Positions 40,886-53,997 of a DNA stretch of 64,000 nt are shown here, in pieces. The stretch spans positions 1 to 64,000 of the forward strand of contig PXYT01000008.1 of NCBI GenBank assembly GCA_003023725.1. The letters run 5' to 3'. Every line of letters starts with the position of its first letter. The first letter of the stretch is position 1. This DNA is from Sulfobacillus benefaciens. Its GTDB lineage: Bacteria > Bacillota > Sulfobacillia > Sulfobacillales > Sulfobacillaceae. Made by a program: the position numbers and the translations under genes. Below the pieces are notes generated by a model. The model was given only the letters and a program-made list of their open reading frames with translations. It was not told the origin of the DNA and searched no databases.

Positions 40886-42009
40886 TATGGCTTGTAAGCT
40901 TTTCAACAAAATCTCACACTGATGCTGATAAGGTATTTATCGAATAGAAAGGGGCGTCTCGCCGTCGTTCGCTCACACCTCCCTACAAGCAGATCCCTAT
41001 AAGGCAGCCCACAAAGGTTGACGCAGACAGTGATATCCCTTCGCAGTACACTCTTGGACCCGGCGTGTGAAAATTTTCCGTATCGAAAGCGCTTTGGGGT
41101 TTCGAGTCCTTTCCCACGGTCCTCGCCCTGCGTTTGCCACAATATGTCCCTAATTCCCGGGCACCTGTGCGACCCGAGGCTGCCGACAGCGTGTGTGCCT
41201 ATACATTTCCCCTCCTTTCACTAGCATCACTAGCAGAGGCGGTGTCACCGCCGTCTTCAGCCATCGATGCATTCACAGGGGGCCTTTCCGAGCCGGCGGA
41301 AAAAAGGACGTCCATCCCGTGAGGTAAGTGTTTGAGGAAAGTGAAGGAAATGCGGCTGGCCAGCGGCAGACTCCGCAAGTTCCGTGAATATTCCCTACCC
41401 AGGCATCGAGACGTCACAGTCTTGGCCACCAGCCAGATATGAGCCTCTGAATCAAATAGGCAGTTAAATCCCGGAAAACTCTGCTTTTGCCTTCTGTCTG
41501 CCGCTCTTCTCCCGGTTAACCGGGAGTTTCGAAGCTGGTTCCCGATACTCCCTCCGGAAATCCCTCACGTGCACTCCTCCCTCCAACGGACGCTGCCGCT
41601 CCGACTTTATATGGCCTCGGCTGATTCGTGCCCGTTCATCGCCACCTGATAGCAACAGTTGCCCTTCTGGATGGCATCTCGAGCAAATCTCCCCGGCTAA
41701 GAGCAATTTCTTTTCTGTCATGTCCCTGCCACATTTGCCCCTGAGCTTTTGGGACGTTTCCGCTGTGCCGGCGACGCGTCCCTCAAGAGATGTCATGTGC
41801 ACTTCGTGTTCCTGGGATCAAGAATTCGCCGCGATTCCTCCAAATCCCGCCTCGCGGCGAACATCCTGGCTGTTGGGTAATGATAGGTGCGTCGCCTACT
41901 CCGTTCCGGACTTTCACCATAGAGAAACCATCCATGCCTGAGGTGCAACAAAACAGCCCAGGAATGTCCTGAGCTGTTCTTATTTACTGGAGCCTTTAGA
42001 GCTTTCGCG
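40886..42009. other. Long stretch without a recognisable gene
   Basis: About 1.1 kb. On the minus strand are open frames 41464-41802 (112 aa, basic, one CxxC) and 41199-41429 (76 aa); neither has a clear family or ribosome-binding site. Hairpin-rich segments (for example GGCGGTGTCACCGCC at 41241-41255) suggest remnants of an inserted element, but I could not name one. Confidence 0.4.
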
Positions 42010-51871: not shown

Positions 51872-51906
51872 CACAGAGCTTGAGGAGAACACCCTCAAGC
51901 TCTGTG
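51872..51906 (+). terminator. Strong Rho-independent terminator
   Basis: Fourteen-base-pair stem CACAGAGCTTGAGG/CCTCAAGCTCTGTG with a 7-nt loop, followed by CTTCGTTCTT. It separates the 129-aa gene from the promoter of the omega RNA region. Confidence 0.85.
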
Positions 51907-51989: not shown

Positions 51990-52357
51990 TTCCGGCGCAA
52001 GACACCCGCAGGAGTGCTCTGCCGCGTTCCAGTCACCGGCAGGATTTCACTGACGCATTGTCTGAAAGGAGATCAAGGCAGCTCATCCGAATCCGGGTGA
52101 CTGAGAAGGCCGCACACTATCACCCCCTGGCCTGAGCCCCCGACCAGGCTCCGTGGCGGGAAGCCCGGTGGCGGTAGGTGCCAGAACTAGCGGGAAACCG
52201 TACACTCCGTCGGTTGACAAGCCTTAGCCGTTGGCGTCTTGGGGGTAGTGCACAAGGTGAGGTGTCCGTAGGCGACCGGACGGAATTTTGGCGAGCCAAG
52301 AGATCGAAAGAATCCCTCACGGATTTCTACGATGAGCGGCTGAGGAGGAAAATTTCG
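51990..52357 (+). ncRNA. Probable omega RNA (HEARO) of an IscB element
   Basis: The 370 bases before the iscB start are non-coding and full of stems. The clearest is a multi-branch unit: GTGAGG (52257-52262) pairs with CCTCAC (52315-52320), enclosing hairpins GTCCG/CGGAC (52264-52281) and TTGGC/GCCAA (52287-52298). Upstream, CCTGG/CCAGG and GCCCGG-type stems follow. Omega RNA normally lies just upstream of iscB, ends near its start codon and carries the target guide at its 5' end, at the element's left edge. The exact 5' end and the guide cannot be read from one copy; 51990-52060 is my range for the edge. Confidence 0.55.
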
Positions 52358-53050
52358 ATGGTTTTCGTTTTGGGCTGGCCCAAGAGACTTCTGATGTCCT
52401 GTACCGAACAGCGAGCCCACAAGTTGCTCGAATACGGCCTGGCTGTCAGTCACAAGAGGGCTTTCTTTACTATCCGTCTTAAGGCTCGTACAGTGGAAGA
52501 CTCGGCCCTTCAGCCCTTTGAGACCCACTTCGATACCGGGAGCAAGGTGACAGGTATCACTATCATCTGGGAACCACCTCACGATCCCAAAGGCATCATC
52601 TTCGAAGAGAGTGTCCACAAGGCAAAAATCAAAGGGCAATCGGATACTCGCAGGGCGTTTGGGCGGGTCCGCACCAATCGAATCGACAACCTGGTTTTGG
52701 TGTGCGCCCCCGGCAATCTCCGGAAGAATAATCGCAGAGAGGCAAAATGCAGCTCGCCCGGGATTCGACTGCAGCCCAAGAAGCCGTTGAAAGATTTGGT
52801 CCTAACGAATGCCAGCCAGTGGCGGCTCAGCCAGTTAAAAGTCAACCAATTGCCGTTGAAGGCACATCGCGAGGCGGCCGCAAGCGCGACGAAGGGGTCA
52901 CAAATTTTCAACAGAACACAACGACGATTCCCTGTGCGTCGGCCTAAATACATCGGTACACGTCACAAAAATTCGGGAGATCCGAGGCCGCTATCAACGC
53001 TGTCGCGGGGACTGATAGTTCCCAATTCGACCCTTGTTGCGGCAGAATGA
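52358..53050 (+). pseudogene. iscB: IscB RNA-guided endonuclease, internally deleted relic
   Basis: 230 aa, against roughly 400-500 for IscB. ATG 52358 after GAGGAGG. The beginning follows IscB closely: VFVLGWPKRLLMSCTEQRA (degenerate PLMP motif), FFTIRLKARTV, and the RuvC-I strand with Asp in HFDTGSKVTGI. It then reaches the start of the bridge helix (DTRRAFGR) and continues, in frame, with RIDNLVLVCAPGN, the back half of an HNH domain in which a zinc cysteine is replaced by Gly. RuvC-II and the HNH front are missing; the final RuvC-III part (LKDLVLTNASQW and FNRTQRRFPV) is degenerate. It cannot be an active nuclease, but might still bind RNA. Confidence 0.75.
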
Positions 53051-53322
53051 TCTTGGGTTTACGGCCGTCATTCCGTCAGAAACGTCCGCGGTCATCTAGA
53101 CAGATCGTGCCACCGTGGAAGCAAGCGGGTAGGTCGTGACCCGACCGGAACCGAAATCCTCGCCGAAAACGCGAGGTCGTTCAACCCGGAGACAAGCGAC
53201 AAACACTGCCCCGTCCTCCACTGAGGAGGCGGGTGGCAGTCGAGAAAGCGGCCTGTTAATGCCTAGGAAGGGGGGAAGGCGCTCCTCTGTGCCCCCAAGG
53301 GCGGAGTCCTCGCGCCACGAAA
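53051..53322 (+). mobile_element. Right end of the IscB element (structured, non-coding)
   Basis: 270 bases with several stems: CCTCGC/GCGAGG (53158-53176), CCTCC/GGAGG in the segment 53210-53232, GCCC/GGGC near 53293-53304. Such stem-rich tails are usual at the right end of IS200/IS605-type elements. No transposase is present, so the element cannot move on its own. The precise end is unknown; it stops close to the start of the response-regulator gene. Confidence 0.45.
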
Positions 53323-53325
53323 TTG

Positions 53326-53997
53326 ATGGATAAACATCGGATTTTGGTTGTTGATGACGAGGAGGTTATTCGCGACGTTTTGGAAATCGGTTTGTCCCAT
53401 CGCGGGTTTCAGGTTCTTACTTGTCAGGACAGCGAAGAAGCCTTACAGGCTGTGGGAACCTTTAAACCTCATGCTGCCGTTATCGACGTCATGATGCCCG
53501 GTGAAGACGGATTCCAGCTCAGTCGTAAATTGCGCCAGGACCCCCATCTGTTCATTCTCCTTCTTACCGCCCGAGATGCGGTAGCTGACCGTGTCACGGG
53601 TCTGGAGGGTGGAGCCGACGATTACGTCATTAAACCTTTTGACTTTGACGAATTGGTGGCCCGGCTTAGGGCCGGACTGCGGCGTGTTGGCCAAGATCAA
53701 AATCATAATCTTCAATTTGGCTCTTTAATCATGGATGACGCCAGCCACAAAGTGTTTGCCGACGGGGAACCGATAACGTTAACAGCCAAGGAATATGAAT
53801 TACTGCGGTACTTGCTATTAAACCCGGGCATTGTTTTGTCCAAAGTCCAGATTTTGCAGCATGTTTGGGGATATGATTACCCTGGTGACGATAACCTGGT
53901 GGAGGTGCACGTGTCGAGTCTTCGGGAAAAAATACAGGACCGCACCAAAAAACTTATTCAAACCGTCCGTGGATTTGGTTACAGGTTAGGAAGTTAG
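53326..53997 (+). CDS. OmpR-family response regulator
   Basis: 223 aa. Receiver domain with acidic pocket VVDDEE, phosphoacceptor Asp in VIDVMMPGEDG near residue 52, Lys in YVIKPFDFDE, then a winged-helix DNA-binding domain ending in TVRGFGYRLG. The start, ATG 53326 (TTG 53323 alternative), has no good ribosome-binding site: the IscB element's tail runs directly up to it. It is followed, six bases later, by its histidine kinase. Confidence 0.93.
   Translation: MDKHRILVVDDEEVIRDVLEIGLSHRGFQVLTCQDSEEALQAVGTFKPHAAVIDVMMPGEDGFQLSRKLRQDPHLFILLLTARDAVADRVTGLEGGADDYVIKPFDFDELVARLRAGLRRVGQDQNHNLQFGSLIMDDASHKVFADGEPITLTAKEYELLRYLLLNPGIVLSKVQILQHVWGYDYPGDDNLVEVHVSSLREKIQDRTKKLIQTVRGFGYRLGS

Follow-up and report, generated by a model that had tools for sequence, protein, structure and literature searches.

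An internally deleted iscB reading frame in Sulfobacillus benefaciens is most likely the relic of a core-deleted HEARO/ISC element

The 64,000-nt stretch of Sulfobacillus benefaciens DNA analysed here (the window; contig PXYT01000008.1, forward strand) contains a 230-aa open reading frame at 52358-53050 (+), in which the front of an IscB protein is joined to the rear of an HNH domain. We conclude, with a probability of roughly 0.9, that the feature is a decaying, core-deleted, non-autonomous HEARO/ISC element and that its open frame is a chance survivor. Core-deleted elements of the IS605 type are already known, and the window relic is a further instance of this kind. The iscB gene lost 345 internal nt in frame, and what remains of it has lost amino-acid conservation and a recognisable omega RNA and has gained a frameshift. 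The deletion is probably a single event, for which slippage or recombination involving short arginine/glycine-codon repeats in phase with each other (RRGR, SRGG) may be responsible; at least one round of copying of the deleted element probably followed, given a second copy on contig C68. Mobilisation would have been in trans by a Y1 transposase, the element having no transposase of its own here; Y1 transposases are present in the genome. The frame itself would have stayed open by chance, without a function.

The ORF is preceded by a Shine-Dalgarno-like GAGGAGG (52342-52348, +), 9 nt 5' of the ATG, and its frame is open upstream as far back as a GTG at 52178. The NCBIfam profile for IscB (NF040563) matched it with an E value of 3.8e-22 over profile positions 1-105 and 217-281 of 314, at a score (78.8 bits) below the curated cut-off of 175, and Pfam RRXRR matched with an E value of 1.7e-18. 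When aligned with the intact relative L075, ORF residues 1-108 were 53% identical to residues 1-108 of that protein, and ORF residues 106-192 were 40% identical to its sequence from residue 221 onward. The first part, at 52358-52660 (+), comprises the PLMP domain, RuvC-I (FDTG, with the Asp kept) and the first bridge-helix residues; the second, in the same frame at 52676-52851 (+), comprises the HNH rear and the beginning of the stretch that leads to RuvC-III. A PDB sequence search gave chance matches only, and a related-locus search of the genome contigs yielded no confirmed relatives.

An earlier note, made from the letters alone, had read the ORF as IscB from its start through RuvC-I to DTRRAFGR, continuing without a frame change at the junction into the HNH rear. 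The profile matches and the alignments agree with this, both parts lying in one frame. The note had also reported that RuvC-II and the HNH front are absent and that a zinc Cys is replaced by Gly; the alignment to intact relatives gave the same result, the replaced residue being the second Cys of the ACxxCN zinc motif. The HNH domain is thus incomplete, with its front deleted and its rear CxxC reading CxxG. The first residues (DTRRAFGR) are all that is left of the bridge helix, and they do not amount to an arginine-rich helix. As for the RuvC catalytic residues, the RuvC-I Asp is kept, RuvC-II is deleted, and the His and Asp of RuvC-III are lost and the region is out of frame.

We mapped the deletion junction, as the earlier note had proposed, to 52661-52675 (+) by alignment with a check of the register. 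Here 345 nt are missing in frame, corresponding to IscB residues ~106-220, and the ~115 residues lost comprise RuvC-II and the HNH front as well as the remainder of the bridge helix. A tblastn chain at the ORF gave the same 345-nt deletion with both parts in the same frame. In relatives, the two flanks joined at the junction are RRGR- and SRGG-coding stretches that share a codon phase, so that a deletion between them would be a multiple of three without any selection. Because the flanks match exactly over only a short run in the register needed, at best 5 nt (CGAGG) in one relative, this repeat mechanism is one that we infer. Among about 60 fetched IscB loci, tallied by hand, ~20 large internal deletions were found in the family, of which roughly 9-10 kept the frame and 10-11 broke it. 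The in-frame excess over the expected one-third was not significant in this survey (9/19, p 0.15; 10/21, p 0.12), and in-frame internal deletions of iscB are therefore ordinary in this family. Another one was seen in L113 (G007:C54:2500-5000), whose iscB at 1155-523 (-) has residues 1-86 joined to ~301-428; this locus has a weak HEARO match (40 bits) and its right end lies at a GTGA start codon.

Past residue 100, where the earlier note had continued to read the ORF as IscB, the homology holds up to residue ~164 and then fails. A 1-nt deletion near 52852, overlooked in the first reading, shifts the frame, and residues ~165-230 are for this reason not IscB sequence. In the alignment the out-of-frame tail of the ORF occupies 52852-53047 (+), and it is open by chance (P 0.05 from shuffling). 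The overlapping ORF 52747-52947 takes up the true frame, and its part at 52853-52947 (+) holds a remnant of the RuvC-III region. Its translation reads ..AVEGTSRGGRK..TTTIPCASA where relatives have VEGGSGGRTK..HYFDALCVG, indicating that in the true frame HYFDALCVG has become TTTIPCASA, without the His and the Asp.

The element as a whole was placed at 52100-53325 (+), with an approximate left edge, from DNA similarity to copies in the same genome, aligned right ends and the empty sites of congeners. A region at 52120-52350 (+), similar to L038, L039 and L044, is a decayed omega RNA (HEARO) region. No match to Rfam HEARO (RF02033) was found upstream of the ORF at E<=1 or at E<=10; eight intact relatives have such a match, with 86-147 bits. 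The right end, at 53140-53325 (+), carries a subterminal inverted repeat (GGCGCTCC...GGAGTCCTCGCGCC) and is repeated in the genome in copies 74-76% identical. It abuts the ATG of a response-regulator gene at 53326. In the intact copies examined the right ends abut GTGA, and in relics of the host genome they abut ATGG or ATGA, often at a gene start. The right ends of old copies (L037, L039, L044, L045, L046, L112 and the window copy at 53325) directly precede an ATG that opens 96 to >400 codons. Exaptation of the right-end hairpin as a 5' leader was considered and rejected: only the G006 copy had a notable folding z-score, those from C68, L045, G002 and the window being unremarkable.

In four congeners (G001, G003, G004 and G005) the response-regulator gene directly follows the upstream gene, with a gap of about 19 nt in G004; in the window the RNA region, the deleted iscB and the right end lie between them. 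Two other congeners, G002 and G006, have at that ATG a right-end-like scrap only, with local-alignment z values of 5.9 and 6.9 (about 0 for empty sites), and no iscB was found at their orthologous site. Since these scraps lie at the same ATG, the insertion probably predates the split of the window species from the G002 and G006 species, and the ORF would since have been lost in two of the three. The alternative is separate insertions at this ATG in the window genome, G002 and G006. Between the upstream gene and the element, the window has a strong terminator-like hairpin with a 14-pair stem (51872-51906), and ~265 extra nt to the left of the element are absent from the empty sites of the congeners. 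Elsewhere in the window, Rfam Group II intron D1-D4-3 matched 41704-41861 (-) with 41.8 bits; near it, no reverse-transcriptase-like ORF was seen among ORFs of 100 aa or more.

The host genome (4.56 Mb in 155 contigs, 2.95% estimated contamination) gave 23 IscB-profile matches, three of them above the cut-off and full length or nearly so (C65, C144 and C72). The earlier note had suggested a search for a full-length copy in related genomes; 11 intact relatives were compared. One of the other matches, the copy on C68 (L037), gave a single unbroken alignment with the window ORF that spans the junction, with 39% identity and the same spacing. At the DNA level the two copies are 61% identical; the C68 copy has a frameshift near residue 43 and is more decayed than the window copy. 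A junction-spanning query over 34 genomes of the family found no copy other than these two, on C134 (the window) and C68, both in the host genome. In a tree from all sites the window and C68 copies grouped apart from the 11 intact relatives (support 98.5/99), and the AU test on all sites rejected the five tested best trees that join one deleted copy to an intact copy (p 0.016-0.038). With codon positions 1+2 alone the sister grouping was weaker and fell short of clear significance (AU p 0.05-0.12). Given the same junction and the all-site grouping, tempered by the weaker result at positions 1+2, it is probable that the two copies descend from one deleted ancestor.

Descent from a single deletion has one competitor among readings that also treat the ORF as a relic, namely that the same deletion arose twice, independently, at recombination-prone arginine/glycine-codon stretches. 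Both break points do fall in RRGR- and SRGG-coding stretches of the same codon phase, the family often shows internal iscB deletions, at a wide variety of break points, and sites changed in both copies exceed chance overlap by little. We nevertheless consider two events unlikely, given the identical spacing of the junction in both copies, their grouping on all sites and the lack of any other such junction among the 34 family genomes.

Decay of the ORF was assessed at 84 residues invariant among the 11 intact relatives. The window copy has changed at 33 of these (39%) and L037 at 44, whereas intact relatives, each left out in turn, had 0-4 changes. The decay reaches into the PLMP domain and RuvC-I (MVFVLD to MVFVLG, LMPC to LMSC, FDPG to FDTG). 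In a neutral simulation the mean BLOSUM score was -0.69 +/- 0.27, and the changes at invariant sites of the window copy, with a mean of -0.85, are equally radical. Along the window branch we estimated 0.32 substitutions per site at codon positions 1+2, almost the rate of position 3 (0.39). The dN/dS analysis that the earlier note had called for gave a mixed answer: omega on the window branch was 0.39, above the background of 0.09 (2dlnL 22.6) yet below 1 (2dlnL 5.6, nominal p about 0.02), and for L037 it was 1.28. Part of the window branch therefore looks constrained. For a functional life before decay to account for this value, the window and C68 copies must have separated before the deletion, an order of events that fits poorly with a deletion held in common. 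No stop codon occurs in the aligned IscB codons of either deleted copy. At the observed decay, the probability that 162 aligned codons stay open under neutrality is 0.077, and the absence of stops in both copies is somewhat unlikely under pure neutrality.

Two explanations would give the open frame a use. A truncated IscB might be kept by selection, for example as an omega RNA-binding regulator or decoy built from PLMP/RuvC-I and the HNH rear, and the earlier note had offered a truncated RNA-binding derivative beside a chance survivor. The in-frame deletion common to two copies, the retained GAGGAGG and an omega that is not 1 are consistent with selection, and the PLMP domain of IsrB is reported to contact the terminal hairpins of omega RNA (PMC9581776). 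However, the changed invariant residues include those of the very domains that would serve, the C-terminal part is out of frame, no recognisable HEARO RNA is left to bind, the C68 copy is frameshifted with an omega of about 1.3, and two congeners have no iscB at the orthologous site. We regard a selected protein as very improbable. The other explanation holds that decayed iscB frames of the family avoid stops without conserving sequence because the relics lie directly 5' of host start codons and must stay translatable. On this view the response-regulator gene would have acquired the window ORF as a translated leader by exaptation, and translation through the otherwise unconstrained frame of the ORF would protect transcription into that gene. 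The stop-free frames of both strongly decayed copies and the many right ends that abut host start codons fit such a role. Lesion-bearing iscB relics (L001, L037, L113, L171, L173, L177, L203 and others) contain 36 in-frame stops against 106 naively expected, but this expectation is inflated, since it takes the parents to be no more distant than the 15 references, and since selection by tblastn enriches for stretches without stops. With the baseline so uncertain, we do not use the deficit as evidence. The frameshift in the C68 copy and the complete loss of the ORF in G002 and G006 also tell against a leader, which we think has hardly any chance of being correct.

That the missing middle exists in the organism and was lost by collapse in the assembly is a reading to which we give next to no credence. 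The genome is indeed fragmented, and some contamination is estimated, but the locus lies >11 kb from the end of its contig, a diverged copy with the same junction on another contig answers the point indirectly, and the frameshift and the decay are independent of the deletion. A chance survivor, the other of the two readings offered in the earlier note, is favoured by the 33 changed residues, the frameshift, the missing HEARO match and the ORF's loss from two congeners, together with a probability of staying open of about 0.08.

HEARO elements and their RNA have been described (PMC9755519). With HEARO/ISC elements (NF040563, RF02033) the window relic has in common the PLMP and RuvC-I sequence, the HNH rear, the place 3' of the RNA region, and a right end that carries a subterminal inverted repeat and borders on a start-codon-like NTG. 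It differs from them in the 345-nt internal deletion, the frameshift, the lost RuvC-III residues, the lack of a detectable HEARO match and a right end that meets ATGG, where intact copies have GTGA. Like IsrB, the ORF is shorter than IscB and has PLMP and RuvC-I. However, IsrB keeps RuvC I-III and the bridge helix and has no HNH domain (PMC9581776), and an IsrB identity is ruled out by the deletion of RuvC-II and the presence of half an HNH.

A closer likeness is to PATEs, core-deleted derivatives of IS605-type transposons that have been ascribed to repeat-mediated deletion (PMC3119063). As in PATEs, the ends of an IS605-type element are joined by loss of the core: the RNA region and the right end are present, with an approximate left terminus, and the deleted form occurs in more than one copy, on C134 and C68 with the same junction. 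PATEs, as that paper describes them, lack the length to encode a transposase (PMC3119063), whereas in the window copy ~690 nt of coding sequence survive in decayed form. Shorter derivatives on C132 and C1, which consist of the RNA region and the right end without iscB, are nearer to the PATE form. The literature we searched held nothing directly on IscB relics. That a decaying core-deleted mobile element can account for an apparently striking 'mini-IscB' ORF calls for caution in mining genomes for small RNA-guided proteins, and the family survey, with some half of its roughly 20 internal deletions keeping the frame, is a baseline by which a truly selected short derivative could be recognised.

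Two pairs of loci in different species, comprising relic and intact iscB, are nearly identical: L041 (G000:C133) and L164 (G027:C140) at 98.9% over 2.6 kb, and L204 (G000:C72) and L139 (G006:C106) at 99.7% over 3.9 kb. One of these pairs spans genera, and the near-identity reflects either recent transfer or binning contamination.
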